From a virus, in IMG/VR virus record IMGVR_UViG_3300046723_000152, positions 1 through 48,645 of that record: a stretch of 48,645 nt of DNA. One strand, written 5' to 3'. Below are positions 2,122 through 42,945 of this stretch, piece after piece. The position numbers were made by a program, and so were the translations under genes. Within the stretch, counting starts at the first letter, position 1. Each line of letters begins with the position of its first letter. The notes under the pieces are model-generated. The model saw only the letters and a list, made by a program, of their open reading frames with translations, ran no database searches and was not told where the DNA came from.

Positions 2122-2522
2122 ACGCCCCGGCCAACATCAGGGCGATCAATCTCATGAAGGATAGGCCGCGCGCCTTCACCGCGGCCGAGAAGGCCCTGAT
2201 TGGCAAGGTGCACGGCTACATGCCGGCTCAGCAGCTGCTCGAGATCCTGAACGAACGCCTCGCCGCCGATCTCGGGCCCGACGAACCGCAGCACACCATG
2301 GAGCAGCTCTACGCGGAGATCGGAGACTCAGGCGCCATGCCCGCCGGCGGCCACGACTGGTCGAGCCTGCGCAAGCTCGTCGCGAAGGCGCGCCGCGATG
2401 GCGTGCTGGAGCGCGTCACGCGCCAGGTGATCGACGACTTCGCCGTCGTGTTCTCGCTCAACGCGCGCCAGGTCCTCAACCTCCATGATGTCCTGCTGAA
2501 GGCGAAGGACGCGGACGAATGA
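2118..2522 (+). CDS. Hypothetical protein, 134 aa
   Basis: No family recognised. The 134-residue product is mostly helical in appearance and soluble, with an HDWSSLRKLVAKARRDGV stretch near residue 75 that could pack as a winged-helix, and an acidic C-terminus. It is coupled by ATGA overlaps to the ASCH-like gene upstream and to the HerA-like ATPase gene downstream. By position it may assist that ATPase, but this is inference only. Confidence 0.6.
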   Translation: MNAPANIRAINLMKDRPRAFTAAEKALIGKVHGYMPAQQLLEILNERLAADLGPDEPQHTMEQLYAEIGDSGAMPAGGHDWSSLRKLVAKARRDGVLERVTRQVIDDFAVVFSLNARQVLNLHDVLLKAKDADE

Positions 2523-3463
2523 AGCGCACCGTCATCATCCGTAAGGAGCTCGAGGGCGCGATCCTGGACTTCGGCAGCGTCGCGATCGACCTGTCGGAAT
2601 ACGCCACGACCGGGCTGCGCATGGTCGCCGTGGGCCCGAGCGGCATCGGCAAGACCAACGCCGGCCTGCTGGTGGCCGAGCAGCTCTCCCGCCAGGGCTG
2701 GGTGTCTATCCTGATCGATCCAGAGGGCGAGCTCGAGTCCATGTACGGCGATGCGGTCCGCGGCGTCAGCGAGCTGCGCGAGCGCCTGGCGAAGCGCGAT
2801 CAGCCGATCCTGGTCGTGTCGGCGAGGGACGCCTCGGAGTTCATCCCCTACGGCCGCATGATCCTCGAGGCGGCCGAGCAGGACCGCAAGCCGATCTTCG
2901 TGATGATGGACGAGGGACAGGCGTTCAGCGCGCCGAAGAAGCGCAAGGGCGACATCGGCGAGGCCTCCGACATCGTCAACCAGTTCGCCGAGCGCGGCCG
3001 CAAACGCGCCCTGGATCTCTTTCTCACGGCGCTGCGCTTCACCGGATCCCTCCACCGCTCGATCTTCGGCACGAAGAACCTGTCCCTGATCGGTTGCCAG
3101 GAGGATCCGACGGCCTGGGCCGCGCTCGCGCCGCAGTTCCGCTCCTCCAAGATCGAGTTCGGAGATCTCACCGCGCTCGCGCCGGGAGAATTCTTCTGCT
3201 TCAGCCGCGCCGGCGCCGAGAAGGTGCGCATGCCGATGGCCGAGGCGCTCAAGCGCGTCGCGCCCAAGGCGAAAGCCGCGAAGCCCAAGCTGCCGACCAC
3301 CTTCAGCCAATGGGACCGCGCCATGCGCGACGTGCCCACGCCCAGGCTGCGCGCCCTCACGCCGCCCCTGGTTGCCCTGCTCGGCGCCGTCGCCGGCCTC
3401 TCACCGCAGCAGATGCTCTCGGGCGACCGAGCCCTGCAGGACGAGCTGGGGACAAGACGATGA
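2519..3463 (+). CDS. HerA/FtsK-type P-loop ATPase
   Basis: The product has 314 residues. Walker A is GPSGIGKT (39-46) and Walker B is KPIFVMMDEG (about 124-133). After them comes an ERGRKRALDLFL segment of the kind that carries the arginine finger and sensor in HerA/FtsK ATPases. Such proteins form hexameric rings that translocate or remodel DNA; HerA itself works with the NurA nuclease, but no NurA-like gene is seen here. The C-terminal 80 residues are basic and Pro/Ala-rich. The gene overlaps both neighbours, and a second HerA-type ATPase lies 3.7 kb downstream in the same operon. Possible roles are replication, recombination or segregation of phage DNA; none is shown. Confidence 0.72.
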   Translation: MKRTVIIRKELEGAILDFGSVAIDLSEYATTGLRMVAVGPSGIGKTNAGLLVAEQLSRQGWVSILIDPEGELESMYGDAVRGVSELRERLAKRDQPILVVSARDASEFIPYGRMILEAAEQDRKPIFVMMDEGQAFSAPKKRKGDIGEASDIVNQFAERGRKRALDLFLTALRFTGSLHRSIFGTKNLSLIGCQEDPTAWAALAPQFRSSKIEFGDLTALAPGEFFCFSRAGAEKVRMPMAEALKRVAPKAKAAKPKLPTTFSQWDRAMRDVPTPRLRALTPPLVALLGAVAGLSPQQMLSGDRALQDELGTRR

Positions 3464-5379
3464 TTGCCTGGCAGCGCTTCATCCTCGAGCATGGCTGGCG
3501 CACGCCCTCGCACGAGCTCGCCGCGGTGCTCGGCCGCTCGATCGAGGAGGTCCTGCGGATCCGCGAAACTGGTGCGTGCTCGAGGCAGAAGAAAACGAAG
3601 CGCTTCGTGGAACTCTTCTCGCTCTGGCGCGGCCGCACGCCACGTGATGACGAATGGCCGATGCCTCGGAAAGCCGGCCGGCGCGGCGCCTACGAATGGC
3701 AGGCTCCGGATCTCGCCGTGGTCGCGAGCCTGGTCGGGCGTCTCGGTAAGGCGGAGATCTCGAAGATCATGACCGAGCGCCTCCGCAAGCGCACCGGCGA
3801 TCGCCGCGCCGTGCGCTCGCATCACAGCGTGCAGATGGCGATCAACCACCGCCTGGGCATGGTCACGACCGATGTCGTAGGCGGCATGACGATCGCCGAG
3901 GCCGGTCGCGAAGTGGGTTCACGCGCGATCATCTACCAGTGCATCCGCTCGAAGCAGCTGCGCCCGTTTCGCGTGGGGCGCCTCTGGGTGATACCGCGCG
4001 CGTCCTGGGAGGCCTGGAAGAAAACGAGGATCTTCCCGCCGAAGGGATATGTCCAGCTGAGCAAGATCCGGCGGCCGCTCGGGATCCGCAGCGACAAGCT
4101 GTCCGAGTGGGCGCGCGCCGGCTATATCCCCACCGCGGTGCGCTGCAATCCCTTCGGCCTCGATATTCATTCCACACGGTTCGGCACCTGGTTCATCGAT
4201 CCGAAGCTCGCGAGAAAGCTCGTCGCCGATCGACGCGCCGGCAGGCCGATGCCCTGGCACGGGAAGCCTGAGCCTGGCAATCTCGCCGTGACCTGGCGCA
4301 AGCTGCGCGCGCGCCTGCACCCGAAGGCCTGCAGCACCTGCGCGCAGATCTGGGGCCCGGAGGGTGCACCGCATTCCTACGATGACTACCTGCGCAGATA
4401 TCCGCCGCTTGCCCTCGGCGCGAAACGGCACCTCACGCGCAAATGGACGCCGGGCATGACGCCGGCGGAGGCCGCGCGCTTTGTCGGATGCGGGCCCTCG
4501 AGGGTTGCGCGCGCGATCGCGAATGGAGTGCTGAGCGCGACTCGCCGGGGGCGCCGCATCTATCTCTCGCGGACCGATGCGACGCACTGGCGCGCGCGCA
4601 GGTGCCCAACGGGAGACAGCGACAAGTGCTGGATCTCACTCGCGACCGCCAGCAAGCAATACCTGTTCACGCGCCGGCAGCTGCGGCGATTCATCGCCGA
4701 TCGCAAGCTGCTCGCGAAGATCGGCACCAACGGTCCGATGCGCGGTGAGACCTACGTCTCGAGGCATATGTGCGGGCAGTTGCGCCAGGCGATCGGATTC
4801 TCAGAGGATGAGGCGGCGCGCCGCGTCGGTGTCTCGATCGAGAGGCTGCGGATCCTGCTGCACGGATGCCAGTGGCGCGATCAGACGAAAGGAATCCCGC
4901 TTGCGACCGTGCGCGCACTGCAGCAGCGGTACGAATCGCAGGAAGGCTACACGCTCGCGCAAGCCGCGGCTGAGCTCGGCGTCTCCGAGAAGTGGATCCA
5001 TGATCGAAAGCTCGACGGCACGATCAGGATCTCGAGGACCAGGTGGGACCGCCGGCGGATCTACATCAGCAAGCCGCAGTTCAAACGGCTGCTCGAGGCG
5101 AAGCGGCATCCTGTGAAGCGCGAACGGTTCGGCGCGAACTGGCTTTTCCTGAGCGCGGCCGCGACGGAGGCAGGCGTCTCCAACGCGACCCTGCACAAGT
5201 GGTCGGAGGACGGCGAAGTGAAGCGCCGGCGATCGCGGCTCGGCTGGCGCTATCACCGCAGATCCGTGCGCGCTCGAGCACGACTCTACTGGCAATCCGT
5301 CCGCTTTCGTCGCGCCGTGCCGCCGGTCTGGATACCTCCCGGGCACGCGAGCGCGCAGCTCGAGGCGAGGGCCGCATGA
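3460..5379 (+). CDS. Tandem helix-turn-helix (excisionase/MerR-like) DNA-binding protein, 639 aa
   Basis: This large basic protein is built from repeated small helix-turn-helix units. Each has a TxAEAAxxxG turn, a second helix, then a basic wing and a final W/F-containing strand. I count about seven, near residues 143-185, 197-253, 332-378, 391-440, 446-487, 497-545 and 562-606; the clearest begin MTIAEAGREVG, MTPAEAARFVG and YTLAQAAAELGV. Single units of this type occur in excisionases and MerR-like proteins. A string of them suggests cooperative binding along DNA, as a nucleoid-like or partition factor or an excision architect. The ATG at 3460 overlaps the HerA-like gene's stop, so the two are likely made together. 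No enzymatic motif seen. Confidence 0.65.
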   Translation: MIAWQRFILEHGWRTPSHELAAVLGRSIEEVLRIRETGACSRQKKTKRFVELFSLWRGRTPRDDEWPMPRKAGRRGAYEWQAPDLAVVASLVGRLGKAEISKIMTERLRKRTGDRRAVRSHHSVQMAINHRLGMVTTDVVGGMTIAEAGREVGSRAIIYQCIRSKQLRPFRVGRLWVIPRASWEAWKKTRIFPPKGYVQLSKIRRPLGIRSDKLSEWARAGYIPTAVRCNPFGLDIHSTRFGTWFIDPKLARKLVADRRAGRPMPWHGKPEPGNLAVTWRKLRARLHPKACSTCAQIWGPEGAPHSYDDYLRRYPPLALGAKRHLTRKWTPGMTPAEAARFVGCGPSRVARAIANGVLSATRRGRRIYLSRTDATHWRARRCPTGDSDKCWISLATASKQYLFTRRQLRRFIADRKLLAKIGTNGPMRGETYVSRHMCGQLRQAIGFSEDEAARRVGVSIERLRILLHGCQWRDQTKGIPLATVRALQQRYESQEGYTLAQAAAELGVSEKWIHDRKLDGTIRISRTRWDRRRIYISKPQFKRLLEAKRHPVKRERFGANWLFLSAAATEAGVSNATLHKWSEDGEVKRRRSRLGWRYHRRSVRARARLYWQSVRFRRAVPPVWIPPGHASAQLEARAA

Positions 5380-7196
5380 AAGCATCCGACTTCAAACCCG
5401 ACGACGCCGTTCTCTATGTTCCCAGTCACGCGCACGGCGATCGCCGGCATCCGGATTGCGAGCACGGCGTCGTCAGGAGCCAGAACGGGAGCAACGTATT
5501 CGTGCGCTATTGGAAAAACGGAGTGCTGCAGAGCACTGCGCAGTCGACGAGCCCGGAGGACCTGGTGAAAGGAGGAGAGAAGCTTATGACCGTCGCCGAA
5601 GAAATGGCAGCTGCCCGCGAGAAAATCGCGCCGCCCTCGCACGAGGAGCTGCTCAAGCAGGCGCGCTGGATGGTCCTTCACCCGGATACCCCAGCAAGCC
5701 AGCGCCCGATGCTTATGGCGCTGCTTCGGGAGATCGACCTGCTCGAGCTATATCGCAAGGGCCTGAGCTATGACGGCAACGGCCACCCGCATTTCGATCG
5801 GGCGATCGCCGCCCGCGCTGCCGAGGCTAGGATTGATCGCGGCGATGCAGTCAATCTAGCGATGGACTGGCTGGAGAATAGGCCGACGCTGACGCCGAAT
5901 GGGATTCAGGCCCTTTGCAACGCGGTCATGCTCATGGACAAGACCCTCTCCTCCCGCCCCGCGATCATCGAGGAATGCGCGAGGGTGTGCGATGAGCAGT
6001 ACGAGAAGCACAAGCACTATTTCAGCGTCGGGCCCGGGTTAGCTACGGCCTGCGCCACCGCCATCCGAGCCCTCGCTCCAGGGGGGCAGAATGCAGCGCC
6101 GCAGGCTGGGCGGAAACCGTGCTGGTTCATCGAACGCAAAGAAGACCCGCGCTGGATCGAACCGTGGCCGAGTCGGAATTGGACAAACGATCCGCTTGCC
6201 GCTCGCGTGTTTAAGTCAAAAGCAGATGCTGAATTGTGTATCAAAGAAGGGCAAGTCTATGGAAGCGAAGCCTTTGCGACTGAGCATGCGTGGCTCGACG
6301 CCCCTCCCGCCCCCGCAGAGGTAGCCGAGGGTGCGGGGGAGGACGACCCAATTAAAGAGGTTCAGCTTCTTCGGAGAGCACACGAGACAGATTACATAAA
6401 CGATGGTGGGCATTTAGCTGACGAGCAGCGTGATATTCAGTATTCCGATATGTGCGCTCTAGCCTTATCACTCGCCACAAAACTGAAGCTCTCCTCCCGC
6501 CCCGCGATCGTCGAGGGCTGGCATGGCGGCACAGTAGAGAGCATCTCTGAATACTTCGCCAAGCCGTGCATCGTGGAGAACTTGGCAGCCGCGCATCCCG
6601 TCCTGCTCGTCAGGCAGATGGCGAACGAGATTCTTAGGCTACGCGCCCTCGCGCCAGGGGGACAGAATGCAGCCTTACCGTCAGGTGAGTTCACCAACCG
6701 TAAGCCCGAAGCTCATGGCGAGGGGCCTGCGGTGGCTGCACCGGATGAGCTAGACCGGCATCTTGAGGGCGAGCATCACGCTATCCGAGCGCAGAGTATC
6801 GACAGCCCAATGAATGCCTGCTCGCTCAAGGAAACCTGCCTGTGGCTGAAGAAGATCGCCCTCTCTGCCCCACCCACCCCCGCAGAGGTAGCCGAGGGTG
6901 CGGGGGAGGACTTGCGGAAGCTAGCGCTGAATCTTCCGGTATTCGACAAGAACCGAAACCAGTTCACAGTCGCAATGATGCAAGTAGCGATGGAGCAGGC
7001 AGCGAATTGCATCACTGACTTGCTCGCCCTCCGTGCCGCCCCCTCGCTGTCGATAGACTTCGATCTGCTGCAAACGCTCCAGATGCGGTGCAACTACATC
7101 ATCAATGGCTACAGCGACGCAAAATTAGAAGCCAAAGAAATGGGACGCCTGATCGGAGAGGCCCTCCTAGCGAAGGTGCGAGAGGCGGGGAAGTGA
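5376..7196 (+). CDS. KOW-like module fused to an internally duplicated Ea22-like protein
   Basis: The first 65 residues (AVLYVPSHAHGD... GVVRSQNG... FVRYWKN... SPEDL) match a small phage KOW-like protein that is often a separate gene. The rest resembles Ead/Ea22-like accessory proteins of phages, with the recurring signatures LSSRPAI, ALAPGGQNAA and PAEVAEGAGED each occurring twice. At DNA level a 35-base block at 6310-6344 recurs exactly at 6877-6911, and a 21-base block at 5946-5966 recurs at 6489-6509. A strong internal ribosome site (AAGGAGGAGAG before ATG 5586) lies in frame, so the second part may also be made alone. Coupled by ATGA to 3460 and by GTGA to 7193. Function unknown. Confidence 0.65.
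   Translation: MKASDFKPDDAVLYVPSHAHGDRRHPDCEHGVVRSQNGSNVFVRYWKNGVLQSTAQSTSPEDLVKGGEKLMTVAEEMAAAREKIAPPSHEELLKQARWMVLHPDTPASQRPMLMALLREIDLLELYRKGLSYDGNGHPHFDRAIAARAAEARIDRGDAVNLAMDWLENRPTLTPNGIQALCNAVMLMDKTLSSRPAIIEECARVCDEQYEKHKHYFSVGPGLATACATAIRALAPGGQNAAPQAGRKPCWFIERKEDPRWIEPWPSRNWTNDPLAARVFKSKADAELCIKEGQVYGSEAFATEHAWLDAPPAPAEVAEGAGEDDPIKEVQLLRRAHETDYINDGGHLADEQRDIQYSDMCALALSLATKLKLSSRPAIVEGWHGGTVESISEYFAKPCIVENLAAAHPVLLVRQMANEILRLRALAPGGQNAALPSGEFTNRKPEAHGEGPAVAAPDELDRHLEGEHHAIRAQSIDSPMNACSLKETCLWLKKIALSAPPTPAEVAEGAGEDLRKLALNLPVFDKNRNQFTVAMMQVAMEQAANCITDLLALRAAPSLSIDFDLLQTLQMRCNYIINGYSDAKLEAKEMGRLIGEALLAKVREAGK
5568..5588 (+). promoter_or_regulatory. Internal ribosome binding site and in-frame ATG
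   Basis: The sequence AAAGGAGGAGAG (about 5568-5579) precedes ATG 5586 by a normal spacing, inside and in frame with the 5376-7196 gene. It is a stronger ribosome site than the one at the outer start and marks the junction between the KOW-like module and the Ea22-like part. It suggests that both a fused 606-residue product and a 536-residue product are made. Confidence 0.5.
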
Positions 7197-8953
7197 AGAA
7201 CATGCTGAAACTCGCGAAGGATCTGGTGCTACCGCTCGAAGCGGTGACGCAGACAATCGCGATCCTCGCGAAGCGGAGAGCAGGCAAGAGCTACACGATG
7301 CGGCGCCTGGTCGAGCAGTTGTTCCAAGCCGGGCAGCAAGTCGTGCTCGTCGACCCGAAGGGCGACCAGTGGGGTGTCCGTTCCTCGGCCGACGGTAAGG
7401 CTCCAGGTCTGCCGATCGTGATCCTGGGCGGTGAGCGCGGCGATGTGCCGCTCGAACCGAACTCAGGTGAGGTTGTCGCAAAGCTCGTTGTCGAGGAGCG
7501 GGTCAGCGTCCTGCTCGACCTCTCTACCTTCCGTAAGCACGAGGTCGCCACCTTCATGACCGCGTTCATGGAGAACCTGTACCGACTGAAGGCGCGCGAG
7601 ATTTACCGGACGCCGATGATGCTCGTGATCGACGAGGCGGACGCCATCGCTCCGCAGAAACCGCAAAAGGGCGAGGAGCGCATGCTGGGTGCCGCCGAGG
7701 ACATCGTGCGCCGCGGTGGGCAGCGCGGCATCGGCTGCGTGCTGGTGACGCAGCGCTCGGCGGTGCTGAACAAGAACGTCCTCACCCAGGCGCAGATGCT
7801 GGTCGCCCTGCGCACAATCGCGCCGCAGGATCTCGCGGCGATGAATGCCTGGATCGATGTGCATGGAACGCCGGAACAGCGCAAGACCCTGATGGAGTCG
7901 CTGCCCTCCCTTCCGATCGGTGATGCCTGGTTCTGGTCCCCTGGTTGGCCGACGGCCGAGGGCATCTTCAAGCGCACCCACGTCCTGCCGATCGAGACCT
8001 TCGATTCCGGCAAGAGCCCCGAGCCCGGTGTAAAGCCCGTCGAACCGAAGAACCTGGCCGACGTCGACCTCGATGCGCTCAAGGGCCAGATGGCCGCGAC
8101 GATCGAGAAGGCGAAGGCCGACGACCCGAAGCGCTTGAAAGCCAGAATCGCCGAGCTCGAGCGCGCCGCCAAAAAACCACAGGCCGCAGACGGGCCAACG
8201 CCAGCGTGGCGCGCCGAGTACGAGGCGGCGCACGCGCGGGACACGGCAGTAGCGCACGCTTCCGGCTTGCAGGAAGGGCTGCGCAAGGCCCTACCGCGCC
8301 TGCGCCAGGCATCGGCCGCGCTCTCCGAGGCCACGAGGTCGCTCGATGCAGCAATGGCCGAAGCCGAGCGCGAGCCGGCCCCTGCTGCGGTGTATGTCAA
8401 ACGTCATACATCTGGCGTACGGCCGCGCACGAACGGAAGCGGCCGACAGTCGGGGCACGTACCCGTTGAGGGCGTCAGCCGGTCCCAGCAGCGCATCCTT
8501 GACTCCCTGGAATCCCTGGAGGGCATGGGAATCGCCCAGCCGAGCAAGGAGCAGCTCGCGCTCTGGGCGGAGGTCTCGCCCACGAGCGGGGGCTATTTCA
8601 ACAATCTGGGGACCCTCAGAAGCGCCGGTTTGATCGAATACCCCTCCGGGGGCCTGGTCAGGCTCACGGAGGCCGGTAGGAAGGCCGCCCAGGCCTCGGA
8701 ACCGATGAGCGTCGAGGAAATGCAGGAGTCACTCTGCCGCAAGATCGGGGCGTCCAAGGCGGCCATCGTCCGCGCCCTGATCGAGATCTACCCGAAGTCG
8801 ATCGCGAAGGACGATTTGGCTGGGAAGATTGGGGTATCCCCGACCTCGGGCGGGTACTTCAACAACCTGGGCTCGCTGCGCACCCTCGGCGTGATCGACT
8901 ATCCCACGCCCGGGCAGGCCGTCGCGCTGCCGGTGCTATTCCTGGAAGCCTGA
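7193..8953 (+). CDS. HerA-type ATPase with tandem C-terminal winged helices
   Basis: The product has 586 residues from the GTG at 7193, which overlaps the upstream stop; ATG 7202 is an alternative. The P-loop KRRAGKSYT (about 27-35) lacks the usual first glycine. VVLVDPKGDQWG follows, then Walker B MLVIDEAD (143-150) and the RGGQRGIGCVLVTQR sensor segment (174-188), which are typical of HerA-like DUF87/DUF853 phage ATPases. Residues 300-420 are a charged coiled coil. The C-terminal 130 residues hold two winged-helix units sharing SPTSGGYFNNLG, LR and IxYP, a clear tandem duplication. The protein probably acts on DNA as a ring ATPase. No cognate nuclease is adjacent. Confidence 0.75.
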   Translation: MKNMLKLAKDLVLPLEAVTQTIAILAKRRAGKSYTMRRLVEQLFQAGQQVVLVDPKGDQWGVRSSADGKAPGLPIVILGGERGDVPLEPNSGEVVAKLVVEERVSVLLDLSTFRKHEVATFMTAFMENLYRLKAREIYRTPMMLVIDEADAIAPQKPQKGEERMLGAAEDIVRRGGQRGIGCVLVTQRSAVLNKNVLTQAQMLVALRTIAPQDLAAMNAWIDVHGTPEQRKTLMESLPSLPIGDAWFWSPGWPTAEGIFKRTHVLPIETFDSGKSPEPGVKPVEPKNLADVDLDALKGQMAATIEKAKADDPKRLKARIAELERAAKKPQAADGPTPAWRAEYEAAHARDTAVAHASGLQEGLRKALPRLRQASAALSEATRSLDAAMAEAEREPAPAAVYVKRHTSGVRPRTNGSGRQSGHVPVEGVSRSQQRILDSLESLEGMGIAQPSKEQLALWAEVSPTSGGYFNNLGTLRSAGLIEYPSGGLVRLTEAGRKAAQASEPMSVEEMQESLCRKIGASKAAIVRALIEIYPKSIAKDDLAGKIGVSPTSGGYFNNLGSLRTLGVIDYPTPGQAVALPVLFLEA

Positions 8954-9827: not shown

Positions 9828-10913
9828 ATGGGACGCCGCAGAAAAGACGGTAATCCCCTCGGCCTCGAGCCGCGCGTCTACGCGCACCATGGCCAGTTCA
9901 TCTATCGGCACCGCGACGGCACGGCCGAGCAGCTCGGCAAGGACGTCGCTCGCGCGAACGCGCGCGCCAAGATCTACAACGATCCGGATCATCGCTTCGG
10001 CACCCTCGGCTATTTCCTCGATCTCTACATCGCCGAGGCTGAGGCTGGAAGACTCCTCCGGAAGAAGAAGCCACGCACGATCGCCGACTACAAGGTGCAC
10101 GCGCCTTTCCTGAAATCGGTGTTCGAGCAGCTGCTCCCGACCGACCTGGTGCGACAGCCGGAGCTGCTCGCGGAATACCGCGATCGTCGCAAGGCCAAGG
10201 TCCGCGCGAATCGCGAGCTCTCTCTCCTGTCCGCGATGTATGCATGGCTCATCGAGAAAGGCTACTCCCCGGGCCTCAATGTGAATCCAGTGGGCAACGT
10301 CGCGCGCAATCCTGAGAAGCCGAAGGAGCGCTATGTGGAAGATGCTGACGCCGGCGCCGTTGCTGCGATCGCGCTCCGATCCGTGTGCATGGCCATGCGC
10401 CTGGTCTATATCACGCTGCAGCGCCCGGCTGACATTCTCGCTCTCTCGCCTCAGTCACTCACAACGAAGACCGTCGGCGGGGTCGCAAAGCGCGTGCTCT
10501 CCGTGACACAAGGAAAGACAGGACGCACAGTCAATATCGAGCTGACGGACGAGCTCGAGGAAACGCTCTATATGCTGTCTCCCGATCGCGAGCCCGGGAA
10601 GATGAAGATCTCGGAATCGGTGACGAAGCTCGTAAAGACCTTCGTGCACACCTCCGACGGATCAAGGTATTCGGATGACGGAATGCGCGCGATGCTGCGG
10701 CGCTATTGCTTGAAGTGCGGAGTCTCGACCTTTGGGCTGATGGATCTCCGTGCGAAGGGCGCGACGGATATGTATCTCAACGGTATCCCGCTCGAGCGCA
10801 TCCAGATGCTCATGGGCCACAAGTCGGTTGTGACGACGGAGATCTATATCAAGCGGCTCCTGGCGCTCGTGCGGATCGCCCAGCCGAACCGGGTTAAAAC
10901 CGGGTTCGCGTGA
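9828..10913 (+). CDS. int: Tyrosine recombinase (phage integrase)
   Basis: The 361-residue protein has an N-terminal arm/SAM-like DNA-binding half and a C-terminal catalytic half. Visible catalytic residues are R199 (LQRPADIL), K230 (QGKTGR), R308 (DLRAKGATDMY), H331 (MGHKSVVTT) and the nucleophile Y340 (TEIYIK). The His usually three residues before the second Arg is Met here, a known kind of variation. The start at ATG 9828 gives a normal N-terminus (MGRRRKDG). It should integrate the phage at the tRNA-Asn core found 130 bases downstream. An imperfect inverted repeat overlaps its 3' end (10886-10909). Confidence 0.95.
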   Translation: MGRRRKDGNPLGLEPRVYAHHGQFIYRHRDGTAEQLGKDVARANARAKIYNDPDHRFGTLGYFLDLYIAEAEAGRLLRKKKPRTIADYKVHAPFLKSVFEQLLPTDLVRQPELLAEYRDRRKAKVRANRELSLLSAMYAWLIEKGYSPGLNVNPVGNVARNPEKPKERYVEDADAGAVAAIALRSVCMAMRLVYITLQRPADILALSPQSLTTKTVGGVAKRVLSVTQGKTGRTVNIELTDELEETLYMLSPDREPGKMKISESVTKLVKTFVHTSDGSRYSDDGMRAMLRRYCLKCGVSTFGLMDLRAKGATDMYLNGIPLERIQMLMGHKSVVTTEIYIKRLLALVRIAQPNRVKTGFA

Positions 10914-12302: not shown

Positions 12303-12977
12303 TCAATGCGTCCCGGCCGCGGCGATCTCGGCCTTCGAGAATTCGCGCGCGAACGGTGTATTGCAGTCGTTGCAGGTCGCACGGAACTCATCGCGCGAAA
12401 CGCGGGCGATCACACCGCAGCCGCAGACGAACTTGCGAAGGCGCGAGCCCGAGCCGACGCCGCGTGATTTGCCGCCCTTCGCGCCGACTCCTGCGCCGCA
12501 GCCGCGCAGCTTGATCTGGAGCGGCGTGCCGTTCGGATTGATGCCACCGAACGGAGTCGGGCACCCGTCGGTCGGCTGCGGAAGCGCGGCGATCGCTTCG
12601 CGGATGTCGGAGGAGAAGCACGCGAGGGAATATTTGGTGCCAGCCGCGCGCACGAACTGCAGGCCAAGGCGCTCGCACGCTTCCTGCCAGCCCTTGCCGT
12701 GGCCCTTACCCATTCCGGCGAGCACATGACCGAGTTCGTGCAGCGTTGTGCCTGCGACTTGAACCGGAGAGTCCTCGCCGAAAGCGCAAATCTCGGCGAA
12801 GGCATGCTCGTGACCGTTTTTCCAGCAGCCGAAATAGGTGACGCCGCGCGTGGCCTTGGATCCGGCGCCGTAGACCAGCTTCGCATCGAGGGCGGCGGCG
12901 CGCTCCTCTGCGGTTAAACGCTGAACGGCGATCTGACGGACGGCTTGGATGAACTGCTCGTGGGTGAAGGATTGCAT
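12303..12977 (-). CDS. SprT-like zinc metalloprotease
   Basis: The 224-residue protein has a TTLHELGHVLAG motif with HELGH at 80-84 (metal ligands and catalytic Glu), and a downstream GHGKGWQEAC segment as in SprT/Spartan-like proteases. A C-terminal zinc-ribbon-like group (C185, C187, C202, C205) precedes a final TPFAREF. Eukaryotic Spartan removes DNA-protein crosslinks; phage members are uncharacterised. The start at ATG 12977 has AAGGAG on the minus strand. It is the first protein gene after the promoter and tRNA-like gene at 13033-13140, and could be expressed from the prophage. Confidence 0.75.
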   Translation of the reverse strand: MQSFTHEQFIQAVRQIAVQRLTAEERAAALDAKLVYGAGSKATRGVTYFGCWKNGHEHAFAEICAFGEDSPVQVAGTTLHELGHVLAGMGKGHGKGWQEACERLGLQFVRAAGTKYSLACFSSDIREAIAALPQPTDGCPTPFGGINPNGTPLQIKLRGCGAGVGAKGGKSRGVGSGSRLRKFVCGCGVIARVSRDEFRATCNDCNTPFAREFSKAEIAAAGTH

Positions 12978-21878: not shown

Positions 21879-23915
21879 TCAGGATTGCAGGATCGCGGCC
21901 TGGCGCGAGTTCTGGCCGATGATCACGATGTCGCGGTTGTCCACCGCGTCCTTTATCTGCGGGATTACCTCATCCTGCACGAGCTTCCGGATACCATCGT
22001 CACCCAGAACGCCGCTATTCGTGATGTTGACGTTCACCACGGTTTGCGACGATGCCGGCAAGCTGGTGGCTGGCGCCGTCGATCCAATGCCGGGCGTGGT
22101 GGCGATGGGATTGGACACGGATCCCGCACTCGCGCCTCCTGATCCAACTTGGGAGGCCTGGGCGATTCCGGTCGCTGCGATAAGCGCGATCTGAATTGCT
22201 CCCAAGGATTGTATTTGCGCTGCCAGCGCGGCACCGGCGACGGGACCAAGGCCGATCGGAGGAGGAGCAAACGCGGCCATGGACGCGACGGCGGTCTGCT
22301 GAATCACCTGCGCGATCGCGAGCGCCTTTTGGATAGCGATCACTGCGATGGCCGCTGCTTTCGACTTGCCTGCGAATACCTGGAGGAAGTCGGCCGCGAG
22401 CTGCCAGGTGTTCATCTCCAAGTTCGTGACGATCATGGCCTTCTGCCGTTGCTGCTCCTGTTCCTGATATATCGCTGTCGCACGCGCATCCTGGTAACGG
22501 GCGAATACCAGCATGCTCTGGCCCTGCCAATAGTCGTCGGTGATGAACTCCTTTTCCCGGGCTTCATTCAGGAGCGACTGTTCCTGCGTATAGCGTTGCT
22601 CGATGATCTGGAGCGCGGTCTGATTGTGCGTTAGGAGCGCGCTGAGCTGAGCGGCAAGCGCCGCGTTGTATTGGTCTTTGGGCGTGATACCGAGATCTCC
22701 GCCGCCTTGATTCATGGCCGCTCGCTGCGCTGCGATCTGCTTCGCCGCGGAGTCCATTTCTGTTTTCATGCGAGCCACGAAGGCGACGAACTTGTCGTGC
22801 GGCAGGCCCTGGGCGATCAGGTCGTTCAGCTCCTTCTGTACCGAGTCGCCGACGTCGAAGAATCCTTGGGCGAGCGAATGAAGGTCATCGCCTATGTCGC
22901 CAGCGTTCTGCTGCACCGCGCGCGCCGCCTCTCCCATCGCTCCTGGGAGTCTAGCCGCCCACTTCGTGATCGGGTTGTCGGAGACAGCCTTCGCTATCAT
23001 GGAGAACGACTCGAGAGTCGCGCCCGTGAAATCGGCCAGCACGACCTTGATCGCCATATAGGCGTATTTCACGCCCTGGAGCGCGTTCAGGAGATATCCG
23101 ATCGCCTCGACCGTGAACCCGGTGCTCTCCACGACCTGATCACGGAAGCCATTCGCTTCCTTGGAAGCGTCCGCGAAGCCGTTCGCCAAGCCAGCAATCA
23201 TCGGCGCGAGGTTGAGGGCGATCGTAGTGAAGAGACCCTTGCCGGCTGCGTCGGCCCGCTTCATGGCGTCGTTCGCGAGCTCGATCTTGGCCGCGTCGAC
23301 GCGATCGAGCGCCAGGCCCCAAGCCTTCGTATCCTCTTCGGCCTCCTGGAAAGCCTTGGAGCCCTCTGCGACTAGACCCGCCATCTGTCCAGCCTGACGG
23401 CCCATGACCGCCTGCGCGGTCGCGTTCCTGACCGTCGCGTTCTCCATTTTCCCAAGACGATCGATCACGAGCGAGAGCTGCTGGTCCATCGGGAGCTTCA
23501 GGAACGTCGACACCTCGATCCCGAGGCGTTGATACGCGAGCCTCGAGGCCTCAGTGCCCTGCATCGCGTCCACGCTGCTCTTCGCAATTCCTTTCAGGGC
23601 ATTCGATAGACCGTCCTGCGAAACGCCGGCGAGGTCCGCGGCGTGCTGCATGCCGATCAGGGTTTCTGTAGCGATCCCGAAGCGGTCTGAGAGCTTAGCT
23701 GCCTGGTCGGCTGCGTTGGCCGCGTTCTTCGTCAGGTCAGCGAACCCGGCGATCGAGAGCCCGACCCCCAGGCTCGCGAACATGCTCTTGAGGCTGCCGA
23801 CCGCGTCGCTCATGCTCTTGGTCGCGTCTCCGACCATCGCTTTCGCCTTGGCCATATCATCGGCCAGGCGCGCGATATTCGCGCTCATCTGGATTTCAAG
23901 GGAACCGGCGATCAT
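21879..23915 (-). CDS. Tail tape measure protein
   Basis: The 678-residue protein is mainly helical with coiled coils in the first half (NIARLADDMAKAKAMVGDATKS). Hydrophobic Ala/Gly-rich segments follow (AAAIAVIAIQKALAIAQVIQQ; GLGPVAGAALAAQIQ), with a short C-terminal strand region (QTVVNVNITNSG). This is the standard layout of siphophage tape measures, and the gene follows the G/GT chaperones and precedes the distal tail gene. At about 1.5 angstrom per residue it would set a tail near 100 nm. It begins at ATG 23915, overlapping the GT stop by ATGA. Confidence 0.9.
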   Translation of the reverse strand: MIAGSLEIQMSANIARLADDMAKAKAMVGDATKSMSDAVGSLKSMFASLGVGLSIAGFADLTKNAANAADQAAKLSDRFGIATETLIGMQHAADLAGVSQDGLSNALKGIAKSSVDAMQGTEASRLAYQRLGIEVSTFLKLPMDQQLSLVIDRLGKMENATVRNATAQAVMGRQAGQMAGLVAEGSKAFQEAEEDTKAWGLALDRVDAAKIELANDAMKRADAAGKGLFTTIALNLAPMIAGLANGFADASKEANGFRDQVVESTGFTVEAIGYLLNALQGVKYAYMAIKVVLADFTGATLESFSMIAKAVSDNPITKWAARLPGAMGEAARAVQQNAGDIGDDLHSLAQGFFDVGDSVQKELNDLIAQGLPHDKFVAFVARMKTEMDSAAKQIAAQRAAMNQGGGDLGITPKDQYNAALAAQLSALLTHNQTALQIIEQRYTQEQSLLNEAREKEFITDDYWQGQSMLVFARYQDARATAIYQEQEQQRQKAMIVTNLEMNTWQLAADFLQVFAGKSKAAAIAVIAIQKALAIAQVIQQTAVASMAAFAPPPIGLGPVAGAALAAQIQSLGAIQIALIAATGIAQASQVGSGGASAGSVSNPIATTPGIGSTAPATSLPASSQTVVNVNITNSGVLGDDGIRKLVQDEVIPQIKDAVDNRDIVIIGQNSRQAAILQS

Positions 23916-26583: not shown

Positions 26584-26981
26584 GACGAATAGCGCTCGCA
26601 GAAGACCTCGATCATCGTTTTCCTGCCCTCCGCGGTCACCTGCGCCGGGCCGCCGATGATCTGATAGACGGTGTCGGCGTCGTCCCCGTGGACGGTGATG
26701 CGCATCGACGAGTCGATATCATCGCGATACCGCATCCGGATCCTGGCCTGGTTGCGAGCGATCACCGCCCCGAGGGCGATCCCCTCGGCGCGGCTCGGGA
26801 GAGATTCCTGCACCTCGGCCCAGGACTTGACCGCGGCCGAGGGATTCGATGGATCCCGATCCAATGGTGCCCAGGCGACCTTTTGCGTCCCGAACTTGGC
26901 ATCGTTTGTGACGAACTCGGGGTCGCCGGCGACGGCCTTCCGCTCGATCGTGATCTGCCGATCTAGAGCGCCTGCCCTCAC
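26580..26981 (-). CDS. Head-tail joining (head closure) protein
   Basis: The 133-residue product starts at GTG 26981, overlapping the upstream TGA as GTGA. It reads VRAGALDRQITIERKAV, WAEVQESLPSRAEG, ARNQARIRMRYRDDID and VYQIIGGPAQV, the standard signature of small phage head-tail joining proteins. It follows directly after the methyltransferase cassette, although the connector gene it normally neighbours is more than 5 kb away at 32113. Confidence 0.85.
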   Translation of the reverse strand: MRAGALDRQITIERKAVAGDPEFVTNDAKFGTQKVAWAPLDRDPSNPSAAVKSWAEVQESLPSRAEGIALGAVIARNQARIRMRYRDDIDSSMRITVHGDDADTVYQIIGGPAQVTAEGRKTMIEVFCERYSS

Positions 26982-28201
26982 GCTGCGATCCTCGGTTTCG
27001 CCGCGGCCGCACGGCGCCGCGCGTTGATCGCCTCGCTGCCTGCTAGGAGCACCAGCTCGTGCTCCCAGTTCGACGCCAGCGGCTCGACCTTGCCGAATAC
27101 CTCGCTCACCCACCGGATCCACTCGGAGCGCGTCAGCAGCGTCACATGCGCATTGCGGCCGTCCGGAAGCTTCGCGCGCGCGAGCTTGGTCGAGATCGTG
27201 AAGACCGCGGTCGCGCCCTTTTGCCTGACCTCGCCCAGAACGCGATCGACCCCGGACATCGGGATGTGCTCGAGCACGTCGCAGCAGAAGATGAGATCGA
27301 AGACCCCGGCCGGCATGCTCTTGAAGGTCGGGATCGCAGGGTCGTAGCGCGCGATCCTGCGCTCTCCGTCGCGCCAGAAGTGGGCCACCAGGTCGCTCCG
27401 GCCGCAGCCGTAATCCAGGATTGAGGCGGGCTGCAGATCTCGCACGATCTCTGCCACCGCGTCCAGATGCAGTTCGGCCGAGGAGCTCCCGTAATGCCGG
27501 CTGGCGTGGATCTCCTGGTAGGCCAGCAGGTGGTCGTGATAGTCCGGGAGATCCCGTTTAAACGCAAAGGCGCCGATCGCCTCGCGCCCGGCGGCGATCT
27601 CGTGATCGCTTCCCTCGAGGAACCTGAATCCGTGGAGCGCCATCCAGTCGACGAATCCGTTCCTGGTCCAGTAGTAAAGGTGCTCGCCCGGGCGATAGTG
27701 CTTCGAGGCCCTGATGCTCCTCAGGTCCTCGAAGATCGGGACTGAGGCAAAGAGTAAGGCGCCCTTCTTCACCTGCTGCAGGCGCAGCTGCGGATCCTCG
27801 AGGTGCTCGATGGTGTCCCAGAGGGTCACGGCATCGAACTGGAATGGGTCGTCCGCATACAGGCGTGCGTCTGTGAGCGCCTTCGCCGCCTCCGGGATGA
27901 CCTCGTAGCCCTTCGCCTCGAAGCCCGAGGCCTTCGCTTGAAGCAGAAACTCACCTGTTCCGGCGCCGACATCGAGCAGGCTCGCGCCCGCCGGCAGCTG
28001 GCGCTGCAGCATGGCGCAGCGGCCGGCGTTCACCGCCTTGGCGATCGCCGTCCCCTCGTAGGCCTGCACCTTCGCCAAGTACTCGGAACCGTAGAGCACG
28101 CGGCCTGCGCGCATATCTGCCTGGTAGGCTACGCCGTGGCGCTCGCAAAGCATCAGATCGGCGTCGACCTCGGCGTCCCAGCGCTTGATGAGTCTATCCA
28201 C
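26978..28201 (-). CDS. Tandem SAM methyltransferase, 407 aa
   Basis: Two class I methyltransferase domains lie in one chain. The first has motif I SLLDVGAGTGEF with LWDTIEHLEDP; the second has ASILDYGCGRSDL with FCCDVLEHIPM. Both look complete at the SAM-binding loop. The GTG at 28201 overlaps the end of the upstream gene. The C-terminus (AINARRRAAAAKPRIAA) is basic. Such proteins often methylate sugars or metabolites, and in this cassette a glycan target is the simplest idea. It is the last gene of the inserted block, coupled to the head-tail joining gene by GTGA. Confidence 0.75.
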   Translation of the reverse strand: MDRLIKRWDAEVDADLMLCERHGVAYQADMRAGRVLYGSEYLAKVQAYEGTAIAKAVNAGRCAMLQRQLPAGASLLDVGAGTGEFLLQAKASGFEAKGYEVIPEAAKALTDARLYADDPFQFDAVTLWDTIEHLEDPQLRLQQVKKGALLFASVPIFEDLRSIRASKHYRPGEHLYYWTRNGFVDWMALHGFRFLEGSDHEIAAGREAIGAFAFKRDLPDYHDHLLAYQEIHASRHYGSSSAELHLDAVAEIVRDLQPASILDYGCGRSDLVAHFWRDGERRIARYDPAIPTFKSMPAGVFDLIFCCDVLEHIPMSGVDRVLGEVRQKGATAVFTISTKLARAKLPDGRNAHVTLLTRSEWIRWVSEVFGKVEPLASNWEHELVLLAGSEAINARRRAAAAKPRIAA

Positions 28202-28802
28202 GCTTCGCTTCCCAGTAGGCGAGGCAGTCGAATTTCGCCCAGACAACTTCATTCTTCGGTAGCGAGTGCACAAGATTCCAGACCGCTGGCTGGAGCGGCC
28301 ACGCCTCATGGAAGAGCACGCGACCGCAGCGTTTCACCAAGTCGAAATCAGTCTGCGTGTCATTCGTGTGGTCGCCGTCCTGGTAGCAGAAGTCGAACTT
28401 CAGTCCCTTTACCACAGCAGCCTTGTGCGCGTTATCGTCTGCGTTGACGAAACGCAAATTCTTGATTTCCAGGTGCGCGATGATCCTGTCTCGCATCTTG
28501 ATGTCCTCGCCACGATCGCGCGTGACCCCGATCACCTCTTCGAAGTATTGCGACATGATCGCGGCCGTGATGCCGTAAAACGATCCGATCTCGAGGCAGA
28601 TTTTCCCGAGGAAGGTCGCTTCGCGGAGATCCACGAGGAAGCTCTCGAACTCAGCGCACGCGCTGCAGCGTCCGAATGCGGCTTTGCCGAACTGCCGCAT
28701 GATCTCCTTCATGAATGGCGATGCGAAGGGGCCACTCTTGATCGATTCGACATCGAGCGGCGTCTTCAGCTCGACGTCGGGCTGGATGCGCTCATTCAGC
28801 AT
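28194..28802 (-). CDS. Class I methyltransferase (Methyltransf_24-like)
   Basis: The 202-residue product starts at ATG 28802. It has KICLEIGSFYGITAAIM (SAM loop), a conserved acidic FDFCYQDGDHTNDTQTDFDLV block (DxDH type) and RCGRVLFHEA. This is the Methyltransf_24 pattern often found in sugar-modifying enzymes. It is similar in plan to the neighbouring 28796-29353 product (DFDLVKRCGRVLFH against DFELVKRCGRVLFH), so the two look like diverged tandem duplicates. It ends in TAG. Confidence 0.75.
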   Translation of the reverse strand: MLNERIQPDVELKTPLDVESIKSGPFASPFMKEIMRQFGKAAFGRCSACAEFESFLVDLREATFLGKICLEIGSFYGITAAIMSQYFEEVIGVTRDRGEDIKMRDRIIAHLEIKNLRFVNADDNAHKAAVVKGLKFDFCYQDGDHTNDTQTDFDLVKRCGRVLFHEAWPLQPAVWNLVHSLPKNEVVWAKFDCLAYWEAKRG

Positions 28803-38248: not shown

Positions 38249-39361
38249 CTACCCCCGTTGCGTTGATAAGATTTGCTTCACCGTCTCTATCACCTGCTCT
38301 ACAGAGATGTCGCTGATGCAGGCCGCGCCGTTCTTGTCGCGGTTCGGCACGCACGTCGTTCCATCGTCGTGGAGACGGTGGCACGGCCAGCACGGCACTC
38401 GCCCCTGATCGGCGTGCAGCGTGGTGGTGTTCTTCCAGTATTTCGTGATGTTGTCTTCGCTCGCGTGCGAGAGCAGCATCACCTTCGGCATGTCGCGCCT
38501 GGCGACGGCCCACATCGGACCCGTATCGGGGCCAACCACGATGTCGCACGCCTGCGCCTGCACGCACACCCTGCGTATTCCCCAGTTCGGATTGGCTGGA
38601 TCGGCCGAGAGAGCTAGATGCAGCCCCTTCGAAGAGCCGAGATTCTTCTCGACCTCTCCCTGGATAAGACGCGCGTGCTCGAGGTCCTTACCCGGCGCGC
38701 CCATCATAATGACGGGGATGCCAGTTTCCTTGAGCAGCTTGGTGATGATTATGTCGGCCTGCGGATGGACTTTGTCGAGCCTGGTGCCAGTGATAACCCA
38801 CCCGATCACCGGCCCATCCCCTGCGACCTGTCGCTTCGTCTCCTGCGCCTTGGCAACTTCCTCATCGGTGGGAAAGAAGTTTGGATCTATCTCCTCGTAT
38901 GGAACCTCGCAGATGTCGTGCACGATCTCAAGGTAGCTCTTGGCCGACATCTTTCGCCGCATCGAAGCAGGCCACCAGAACGGAGACTGCACTTTGATGA
39001 AGGCGCCAATCGTCTCGCACGAGTGCGAGAGGTTGGCGAAGAATGCGTACTCCTTGGCGCGACTCTGGAACCAGGCCTGCCACGAATGGCCGTCGCCCCA
39101 GTTCGGGTCTCCTGGATCCCGCACACCGAGCTTATTGATGAACGGGTTGTTCTCGAAGACGACGTGCGCAGGCTTGGAGGTCATCACCTCCACATTGCCG
39201 AACCTGCGCTTCAGGCCGGGCAGCACCGACGAAGCGATGATGTTGTCGCCGACTCCGCCCATGCGGCAGATCATCGCCCACCGCGCGACGTCGGACTTCG
39301 CGGCAATCTCAGGCTCTCTGATCTGCTGCGCGAAGTCGGCGGAGACAACATTTACGCTCAA
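38249..39361 (-). CDS. Glycosyltransferase family 9-like protein, 370 aa
   Basis: The start is probably TTG 39361, which overlaps the FkbM-like gene's stop. The product has MGGVGDNIIASSVLPGLKRR (GDxxxA loop of GT9), VIGWVITGTRLDKVHPQAD, VIMMGAPGKDLEHARLIQGE and the C-terminal ACDIVVGPDTGPMWAVA donor-binding motif of ADP-heptose-type transferases. A late cysteine group (VPCWPCHRLHDDGTTC) follows. With the FkbM-like gene it forms a second sugar-modifying pair, inside the fibre block. It ends in TAG. Confidence 0.8.
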   Translation of the reverse strand: MSVNVVSADFAQQIREPEIAAKSDVARWAMICRMGGVGDNIIASSVLPGLKRRFGNVEVMTSKPAHVVFENNPFINKLGVRDPGDPNWGDGHSWQAWFQSRAKEYAFFANLSHSCETIGAFIKVQSPFWWPASMRRKMSAKSYLEIVHDICEVPYEEIDPNFFPTDEEVAKAQETKRQVAGDGPVIGWVITGTRLDKVHPQADIIITKLLKETGIPVIMMGAPGKDLEHARLIQGEVEKNLGSSKGLHLALSADPANPNWGIRRVCVQAQACDIVVGPDTGPMWAVARRDMPKVMLLSHASEDNITKYWKNTTTLHADQGRVPCWPCHRLHDDGTTCVPNRDKNGAACISDISVEQVIETVKQILSTQRG

Positions 39362-40209
39362 TGCAGCGTCTCCGAGAGAAGCTCGACCCTTGGAAGATCG
39401 CACGGCATCTTCTTCTCCTCCGGCAGGCACAGCATGTTGATGCTCACCGTGCTGCCGTAATCATTGATCTCGTTCTTGTTAAAGTTCTGCGGGTTGAAAA
39501 GCGCAGGTAGGTGCCAATATATCGCGTACCCCATGAGGCGAAGCTGCGCAATCAGCGCCGCCTTCTTCTCCTCGCGGTCATTCTCCACATAGAGCACCGG
39601 GCGCAGCCTCTTGATCGTCTGCGCCGCGCCCTTCAGAACGTCGCCCTCCATCCCCTCTACGTCGATCTTGATCAAGTCGCAGCGCACGAAGTTGCAGCCA
39701 TCGAGTGTCTGCACCTGCACCGGTTCTCCGACATCCTTCGCGAGAGAGACGGCGCCGAAATTGCCGGGCGCAGCGTAGTCGATGGGCGGCACATAGGCGA
39801 TTCCAGCCTCCGCTCCGAGCGCCATCCTCTCGGCAATGACATTCCAGATTCCATTGATGGCCAGGTTGCCGCACAGCATCTGGTGGATGATCCGCTGCGG
39901 CTCGAACGCGAAGACGCGACCGGCATTCGTGACGCACTGCGCGAGCGCGAGCGTGTGGCAGCCGATGTTGGCGCCGACCTCGACGACAATGTCCCCGGGC
40001 TTCACATACCCCTGCAGAACCCTGGACTCGTCCTCGGCATACTCACCGTAGCGCTCCAGCGCCCCGCCGAGGTAGAAGTCATGCGGAAAGAATGCCATCA
40101 GTCCGTAGCGGCACTTTCGAATGTGGATCTCGGCGCGAGGCTGTTGTTGTTTCTCTTGCGATGCCGCGCCATCTGCTTTCAGCGAGGCGCTGATTTGAAA
40201 CTCTGACAC
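39358..40209 (-). CDS. FkbM-family methyltransferase
   Basis: The 283-residue product starts at GTG 40209 behind AGGAGA. GDIVVEVGANIGCHTLALA (SAM loop), GRVFAFEPQ and DLIKIDVEGMEGDVLKGA are the diagnostic FkbM motifs. These enzymes usually O-methylate sugars, often on polysaccharides or glycoconjugates. With the downstream GT9-like gene it forms a pair that could decorate fibres or host surface sugars. Confidence 0.85.
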   Translation of the reverse strand: MSEFQISASLKADGAASQEKQQQPRAEIHIRKCRYGLMAFFPHDFYLGGALERYGEYAEDESRVLQGYVKPGDIVVEVGANIGCHTLALAQCVTNAGRVFAFEPQRIIHQMLCGNLAINGIWNVIAERMALGAEAGIAYVPPIDYAAPGNFGAVSLAKDVGEPVQVQTLDGCNFVRCDLIKIDVEGMEGDVLKGAAQTIKRLRPVLYVENDREEKKAALIAQLRLMGYAIYWHLPALFNPQNFNKNEINDYGSTVSINMLCLPEEKKMPCDLPRVELLSETLH

Positions 40210-40229
40210 TTTGGTTCTCCTATTTTTGG

Positions 40230-40481
40230 CTACGCTCGGCTCCAGATGCCGTCCTGCAACGTTCCGCGCCATTCGTCATCGCCTTCGCCTAGCACCAGAG
40301 GCTGCGAGACAGTTATGCTGCCGTCCGCGTTCTCCTTCACCCGGTCTGCAGGCAAGGCATCGACCACGTGATGAGGCATGCCAGGCGGCTTGCCCATCCA
40401 TATTCCATCGACTAGGCCGTAATCGCCCGGCATGAACTTGCTTTCCCCATTGTTGCGCCTTCCCTTTATGTTCACAGGCAT
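40230..40481 (-). CDS. Hypothetical protein, 83 aa
   Basis: The start is taken as ATG 40481, 12 bases after GGAGGAGG, rather than the GTG that abuts that site. The product is small and charged (NIKGRRNNGESKFMPGDYG..., ending WSRA) and the gene ends in TAG. It lies between the Tat-signal gene and the FkbM-like gene. No family recognised. Confidence 0.5.
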   Translation of the reverse strand: MPVNIKGRRNNGESKFMPGDYGLVDGIWMGKPPGMPHHVVDALPADRVKENADGSITVSQPLVLGEGDDEWRGTLQDGIWSRA

Positions 40482-41532: not shown

Positions 41533-42945
41533 TCACTGCGCAGACGCCTGTAGCTCTTCTGTTGCATCGTGCAGGCCATAGATCACGAGCTCGTCGGAGA
41601 GAGCAGAAGCATCCTGCTCCGCAGGCTCATTCGCGGGCCCACTGCCTCCAGCTGCGCCTGAGCTGGCGGTCGTCTCGAACGGATCCGCCTTCGCATCGCG
41701 CTTCGCGAGTGCGGCCAGGCTGAAGTTCTGCTGTTGCATGTATGGCGTTTCGCCGCCGGCAGTCGGGGGCAAGTTCAGGCGTTTGCGCGATTCGTTCGGC
41801 GCCTTTATGCCGCCCTTCACCGCTTCGGCCTCGGCCGTCACCAGTGCTGTGTTGTCCATCCGCAGCAGTGCATCGAGGTCGAGCTCGGTGTGCTTGTCGC
41901 TCGGGAGCTCGAGGCCTTCATCCAGGCATGCTTCGATCGACTCGACTTGGGCCTGAATGCAGTCCGTGAAATAGACGATGCCCAGGAGCTCGACTGTGCT
42001 ACCGCGCGGGACGTCGCCTCCGAGCTTGAACATTGGCATGTGGAAGGCGCGCGCGACGTCTTCGACGGTGAATTTGAGCTGCTCGATCAGCTGCGCGTCC
42101 ATCGCCGAAAGACCCTTGGGCATCGGCTTGTATTCGAGGCCGACGCCGGTGACCAGGACGCGTCCGAGGTTGCCGTTCCCGAACTTCTCTTCGAAGTCCT
42201 TCTTCATCCTGGCGGCCGTCTCGTCGTCGATCTTGTTAGGCGACGTGAAATGGCCGCTCGGGCTGGCCATGTTTTTGATGATCGCTATGCTATTGGCCTG
42301 GATCTTGTTGCCCATCGTGGCCGATTGGCCGCAAGCGTAAATTGGCGACACGCCGACTAGCGGATGGAAGAGACACGTCATCCGATCATGGATGATTTCG
42401 CTTGCGGGGAACGCGGGCTCGTCTGAGCCAACACCGGCCAGGTCATCGCGCATCAACTGATAGAAGACGCTCCCGTCCTCCGCGATCAGCGTCTTCACGC
42501 GCTGCGAATCGAGAACGTGCAGAGCGCGCACCATGCCGCGCTGCGGTTCGCGCTCCTTCAGGACGTATGCGTTGCCATGCAGCAGCTTTTGCGTGATCCA
42601 CTGCTCTACAAACTGGAACCGCGTCTGGTAATCGTTCGGCTTCTGCAGAACCGCGACGAAGGGACCGGTCGTTATCTCGGTGTCGATGCCGTCGTCGCCC
42701 TCCGCCTTAAGGCAGATTTCGCACTTGGCGACGTCCGACGAAATGAGGGAGACGCACGAGTAGACGGCGGAAAAAGCGAGGATGTTCTTCGGCGCATCCA
42801 GCACCAGGCTCGCCTGCCAAGCGCCAGCCCATGCCTCGCGGATGATCCCGAACCAGCCGCCGCTGCCGCCGGCGGTCGAATCCACGTAAGTCAGGGCCTT
42901 GGTGCGCCGGTAAGTCTCGGCGACGACCTTGAAGATATTGATCAT
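41533..42945 (-). CDS. HK97-type portal protein
   Basis: The 470-residue protein has AFSAVYSCVSLISSDVAKC, FQFVEQWITQKLLHGNAYVLKER, VSPIYACGQSATMGNKIQANS and ENRxxSxxRVLVTG-like segments (GRVLVTGVGLEYKPM, ARAFHMPMFKLGG). These are the HK97 portal signature. It forms the dodecameric ring at the packaging vertex. Unusually it follows the capsid gene instead of lying between TerL and the protease. ATG 42945. Confidence 0.9.
   Translation of the reverse strand: MINIFKVVAETYRRTKALTYVDSTAGGSGGWFGIIREAWAGAWQASLVLDAPKNILAFSAVYSCVSLISSDVAKCEICLKAEGDDGIDTEITTGPFVAVLQKPNDYQTRFQFVEQWITQKLLHGNAYVLKEREPQRGMVRALHVLDSQRVKTLIAEDGSVFYQLMRDDLAGVGSDEPAFPASEIIHDRMTCLFHPLVGVSPIYACGQSATMGNKIQANSIAIIKNMASPSGHFTSPNKIDDETAARMKKDFEEKFGNGNLGRVLVTGVGLEYKPMPKGLSAMDAQLIEQLKFTVEDVARAFHMPMFKLGGDVPRGSTVELLGIVYFTDCIQAQVESIEACLDEGLELPSDKHTELDLDALLRMDNTALVTAEAEAVKGGIKAPNESRKRLNLPPTAGGETPYMQQQNFSLAALAKRDAKADPFETTASSGAAGGSGPANEPAEQDASALSDELVIYGLHDATEELQASAQ

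Follow-up and report, generated by a model that had tools for sequence, protein, structure and literature searches.

The viral locus analysed here carries three coupled genes, g4, A1 and H, which form a conserved unit found in temperate tailed phages, plasmids and, likely, conjugative elements of Pseudomonadota. The two other large genes of the same operon, E and A2, are separate passengers. The association of a HerA/FtsK motor with a string of helix-turn-helix (HTH) units and a small protein across unrelated mobile elements suggests a generic job in the handling of mobile DNA. None of the annotation libraries used names such a job, and the module consists of just three genes.

The window, i.e. 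the whole stretch of DNA that was analysed (48,645 nucleotides), is a 48.6-kb virus record that belongs to a tailed phage according to its gene content (Pfam, PHROG). Its left end falls within the operon. The main features are the following:

2118-2522, + strand: g4, 134 aa, first gene of the trio, located outside the interval given by the earlier note
2519-3463, + strand: A1, 314-aa ATPase, predicted motor of the HerA/FtsK clade
3460-5379, + strand: H, 639 aa, tandem-HTH array
5376-7196, + strand: E, 606 aa, acidic, with internal repeats, no family match, locus-specific
7193-8953, + strand: A2, 586 aa, HerA/FtsK motor plus a C-terminal pair of winged helices
ending at 10913, + strand: tyrosine integrase, downstream of the trio
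21879-23915, - strand: tape measure (Pfam/PHROG searches)
41533-42945, - strand: portal (Pfam/PHROG searches)
43061-45670, - strand: protease/capsid protein (Pfam/PHROG searches)
45906-47708, - strand: terminase large subunit, lambda-type (phrog_9)

The window also carries several methyltransferase-like genes (924-1556, 26978-28309 and 39358-40272) with a generic weak resemblance to mad2, and a gene (12303-12977, - strand) for a protein with a HELGH metalloprotease-type motif (phrog_6361) that looks SprT-like by eye.

The earlier note on this DNA had described ORFs of 314, 639, 606 and 586 aa joined by 4-base overlaps, and both the coordinates and the junction sequences were confirmed (ATGA at 2519-2522, 3460-3463 and 5376-5379; GTGA at 7193-7196). 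The operon grouping that it drew from them was kept for A1 and H; it had missed the 134-aa g4, which is coupled to A1, and had included A2 and E, which lie outside the conserved unit. In the annotation of the Azospira plasmid pAZI09, both trio junctions are likewise 4-base overlaps. In L006, L007, L008 and L014, a gap of ~400 bases separates A1 from H, and the last three of these loci have a conserved ORF of about 128-180 aa in the gap.

A first A1 search found relatives in 14 viral contigs, and tblastn placed g4, A1 and H together and in the same order in each viral locus uncut by a contig end. Separate scans from A1, H and g4 reach the same viral contigs, 17 distinct ones once the window's siblings are merged, one of which is cut before g4; a recognisable terminase, from one of three families, occurs in nine of the 17. 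In bacterial genomes, the trio was present at 25/25 A1 loci, H being split or truncated in some. The gene order is constant across these loci and the plasmids, and g4 immediately precedes A1 wherever a viral, genome or plasmid locus is uncut. The genera concerned include Chromobacterium, Achromobacter, Acidovorax, Variovorax, Burkholderia, Acidocella, Rhodopila, Steroidobacter and others. A query with H only against 399 Burkholderiales genomes retrieved three carriers, all three of which also have g4 and A1. Three plasmids carry the trio (pTY921B, Azospira pAZI09 and a Variovorax plasmid), and conjugative elements are likely carriers as well, since an SXT-type TraD is encoded 36-41 kb from the trio in some genome contigs. 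No tblastn match to A1 or H was obtained in 50,697 deposited phage records.

The three proteins have diverged together (Mantel r of 0.81 for A1-H, 0.85 for A1-g4 and 0.69 for H-g4, with 0/2000 permutations as high). The tree of concatenated A1 and H has one well-supported group (100/98) with ten members from viral contigs and three from genomes; the other genome-borne members are found elsewhere. The linkage of the trio in every uncut locus examined is more than chance. Clustering of neighbouring ORFs revealed no constant fourth partner beyond a minority of loci.

A1 belongs to the HerA/FtsK clade by its predicted fold. Its AlphaFold2 model (pLDDT 82, pTM 0.73) aligns over residues 12-243 with the HerA of S. 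solfataricus (4d2i, chain 117-464; DALI-scale Z 20.3, rmsd 2.7, 216 residues), an alignment that is confined to the motor part, and aligns similarly with defence HerAs, VirB4, TcpA and FtsK; the top Foldseek match is STIV B204 (E 9.4e-9). The earlier note had proposed two HerA-type ATPases: A2 qualifies by Pfam cut-offs, and A1 does so by predicted fold, its sequence matches all being sub-threshold. An alignment of 34 homologues shows that the Walker A (G42-G44-K45-T46) and Walker B (D131 E132) residues are invariant, as are the arginines R159/R161/R163 and T170 A171. The P-loop begins near residue 39 and is preceded by about 36-38 residues without a HAS barrel; the model has no transmembrane helix in this region, so that the membrane anchor of the coupling proteins of type IV secretion systems (TcpA/TraD) is absent. 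In the HerA/FtsK clade, a sensor-1 glutamine ends core strand 4, with the arginine finger just upstream (PMC10853773). By sequence alignment, A1 has the invariant A171 rather than Q at this position and thus appears to be devoid of the usual sensor-1 glutamine of the clade, which is why DNA translocation by A1 should not be assumed.

H was described by the earlier note as a tandem-HTH protein, and rightly so: Pfam recognises four HTH_17 stretches, and the structural model (pLDDT 84, pTM 0.42) contains about ten HTH units, including winged ones of the MerR/Xis type. The low pTM is expected from a beads-on-a-string architecture. The protein is strongly basic (pI 11.4, 20% Arg+Lys) and has a conserved CxxC (C291/C294 in an alignment of 29). 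Its single units match structures of BldC, Xis (Pukovnik), MerR, RacA and TraN by fold, and H units match excisionase families by sequence (phrog_66, 7.5e-12; TIGR01764, 4.2e-13); Foldseek against the PDB gave no full-length match with E <0.001. Conservation is highest in the CxxC region (260-330) and in one recognition helix, that of the unit at ~197-260. Most predicted recognition helices are slightly below the protein average (2.39 vs 2.66 bits), i.e. not unusually conserved, and H homologues may therefore share no common target. As for g4, a weak resemblance to Pfam HARE-HTH (E=0.014, below the cut-off) and its sequence suggest a small helical protein. Neither g4 nor A1 is covered, above a curated threshold or along its whole length, by any family of Pfam, NCBIfam or PHROG.

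The neighbourhoods of the trio are highly variable and indicate no single role, but DNA handling or mobile-element conflict is a recurring context. Contig L103, which is 99.98% identical to the first 6067 bases of the window, extends the locus upstream and encodes a YqaJ-type recombination exonuclease (PF09588, 2.2e-15) on the same strand as the trio and a 362-aa neighbour that matches no Pfam family and could be an annealing protein; its DUF1376 gene lies on the opposite strand. From the exonuclease and the same-strand layout, with the integrase downstream, we infer that the operon resembles the lambda pL-type recombination-to-integrase operon. DUF1376 is a domain that we take to be associated with phage replication genes; involvement of the trio in replication initiation was considered and is unsupported, the DUF1376 protein sitting on the other strand. 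The earlier note had also stated that no NurA-like, Sir2 or other effector nuclease was present. This holds within the interval, no NurA, Sir2/DUF4297-type nuclease or effector being detected in the window operon (Pfam/PHROG/PADLOC) or recurrently in the conserved neighbours examined; beyond the left end of the window, L103 has the YqaJ-type recombination exonuclease. On pTY921B, the trio is located between ParB and SSB/topoisomerase genes, and on the Variovorax plasmid it adjoins gyrB-gyrA and a thymidylate synthase gene. An integrase is common beside the trio in phages, but is not constant (motif scan, PF00589 search), so that it was rejected as a rule. No cis site common to all trio loci emerged when the 500 bp on either side were examined for enriched k-mers, and no coding stretch of g4, A1 or H stood out by synonymous-site conservation. 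Separately, L013:2290-6183 holds, upstream of the trio, a gene for a 450-aa reverse transcriptase (PF00078), followed by a 170-aa gene and by one for a 672-aa protein that resembles ParB (phrog_7783). Equivalents occur in L009, L010, L011 and L040, the carriers being related phages and a prophage; this reverse transcriptase could be of the retroelement or the defence type.

The following model can be drawn for the trio, starting from what is observed: linkage, order, coupling and co-divergence of the genes, a motor fold with intact Walker motifs, and an HTH array. The products of g4, A1 and H would constitute a loader-plus-motor module acting on the element's own DNA, a reading that we judge to have an even chance of being right. 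H would use its string of about ten HTH units to bind double-stranded DNA over a long stretch, would choose or mark this DNA, and would place A1 on it. A1 would be a minimal HerA/FtsK-type ring ATPase, presumably hexameric, without its own DNA-reading domain, and would pump or clear DNA, most likely that of the element, possibly by translocating along it. The third subunit, g4, would probably be an adaptor or a regulator. The outcome would be the establishment, recombination or maintenance of the element in its host. Carriers as varied as phages, plasmids and conjugative elements speak against packaging and conjugation as purposes and in favour of a task shared by mobile double-stranded DNA in general, i.e. 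establishment, maintenance, recombination or protection. More tentatively, and with real doubt, the trio may be a self-contained DNA-placement machine common to phages, plasmids and conjugative elements, in which an HTH string selects DNA and a stripped-down ring without reader or nuclease moves it, for establishment or segregation in an undescribed way.

Other purposes can be envisaged for the same proteins. The trio might shield the incoming DNA of the element by removing or pushing aside the restriction or silencing proteins of the host. Its presence on phages and conjugative elements alike fits such counter-defence, and several loci neighbour anti-restriction, DarB-like, DNA methyltransferase, PAPS-reductase-like or DUF5131/Gp37 genes; yet no such neighbour is constant, several loci have none, and the libraries used linked none of the three proteins to a known anti-defence family. 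We regard this explanation as doubtful. Unlikely, and less probable than counter-defence, is superinfection exclusion by a system akin to MADS or to the HerA/FtsK capture systems but devoid of a nuclease. It would account for the PADLOC matches of A1 (1.6e-6) and A2 (9.8e-16) to mad8 and of 29/29 H homologues to mad1, a 60-aa HTH model, and for the precedent of capture systems that join HerA/FtsK motors with HTH proteins (PMC10853773). It would not account for the lack of a nuclease or other effector conserved with the trio, nor for the scarcity of other mad1-mad8 components, of which the PADLOC-scanned proteins gave only weak generic methyltransferase matches to mad2. Lower still in probability is an excision or recombination helper, in which H would be a covalent Xis-like string shaping att-type DNA and A1 would drive synapsis or dissociation. 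The excisionase-like units of H (by family and, for Pukovnik Xis, by fold) and the integrase or serine recombinase encoded soon after H in several phage loci speak for it. However, the type of recombinase varies by locus, none is annotated near the trio on pTY921B, and no tyrosine recombinase conserved in the vicinity emerged from the motif scan.

The earlier note had grouped A1 and A2, as two HerA rings, with the HTH protein between them into a single machine, and all the genes are indeed coupled in the window. Of its wider claim, a DNA-acting HTH array with a ring-type ATPase and no nuclease, apparently undescribed, the part concerning A1 and H (together with g4) stands and the two-ATPase machine does not. 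By the note's own refuting criterion, homologues scattered without each other, the grouping is refuted for A2 and E but not for A1 and H: A1 and H are always together in uncut loci, A2 mostly occurs without the trio, and E is locus-specific. A2 passes the Pfam cut-offs (HerA_C 5.1e-7, DUF87 1.7e-5) and consists of a motor, a linker and two C-terminal winged-helix repeats (alignment of 15). It keeps the TQR motif (T186 Q187 R188), and its P-loop begins at ~residue 27 after about 26 residues, with no HAS barrel and no room for a membrane anchor; its score against the NCBIfam HerA equivalog is 49.3 bits for a cut-off of 970. Relatives of A2 were found at at least 80 viral loci and, among the matches listed, 78/80 have no trio in the fetched flank, one of the two others being the window's sibling. 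A1 was found in 0/16 A2 phage records searched whole, an empty answer without positive control within those records, the same profile having recovered A1 in 22/22 trio genomes. Conversely, a profile search detected no strong full-length A2 in trio-bearing bacterial genomes. Most trio elements thus lack A2, and a two-ring machine is highly improbable. What remains of the proposed partnership comes from the phages: A2 relatives occur in six of the 17 distinct trio phages (none in the 11 others, some of which are fragments), far more than the 1-3/50,697 among phage records, and A2 directly follows H in L098. A2 may therefore be facultatively associated with the trio in phages, the background being phage records at large with unmatched hosts; A2 is mostly an independent passenger and, in some trio phages, a facultative companion. 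In L024 (3091-7435) and L025 (3120-7464), the A2 relative is encoded among the head genes, a short distance past the gene for the terminase large subunit.

E is locus-specific and outside the trio, as it is found only in the window's near-identical siblings. The earlier note had called it Ea22-like; neither Ead_Ea22 nor any other Pfam or NCBIfam family matches it up to E=1, nor does any PHROG better than 0.05. Sibling L016 lacks window positions 6345-6866, a part of E, and carries a chimeric ORF at 4708-5349. This ORF shares the first residues of A2, then diverges, and is followed by a complete A2, so that the E-A2 junction is interrupted.

HerA/FtsK motors act as hexameric rings on double-stranded DNA and usually accompany a nuclease, a capsid, a secretion channel or a division site. 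A1 has in common with HerA of the HerA-NurA translocase the motor fold, the Walker A/B motifs and the arginines, but it has no HAS barrel, no NurA-type partner and no match to the HerA equivalog (NCBIfam), and by alignment it has A171 where the clade usually has glutamine. Packaging ATPases of the STIV B204 type are, like A1, compact motors without HAS barrel; A1 was nevertheless rejected as a packaging motor, as its phage has its own lambda-type terminase (phrog_9) and the trio is also found on plasmids. A2 is similar to FtsK with its gamma winged helix (motor, linker, C-terminal winged helices) but is phage-borne and has no room for a membrane anchor. DNA partition systems ensure stable inheritance and act through a cis centromere site. 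Near the trio, the k-mer and synonymous-site analyses found no shared cis site.

The literature searched, to which subscription papers mostly did not belong, contains no description of the g4-A1-H trio, which looks undescribed, and H is represented in the families searched by single HTH domains only. Closest to the trio come DndFGH and the other HerA/FtsK capture systems, in which a HerA/FtsK motor is paired with multi-HTH proteins (PMC10853773) and of which a BREX-related version exists (PMC12839542). As with A1 and H, the motor and the multi-HTH proteins occur together on loci of mobile elements or of conflict, but these systems also possess nuclease domains and ATPases of the Orc/Cdc6 or D5 type, which the trio loci do not conserve. 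In MADS, compared here through PADLOC models, the mad8 model has the same length as A1 (314) and matches it weakly, and the units of H match mad1, but H is about ten times as long as mad1. Finally, the single units of H are alike in fold to the winged-HTH binders Xis, BldC and pIP501 TraN; these have one or two units each, whereas H strings together about ten.
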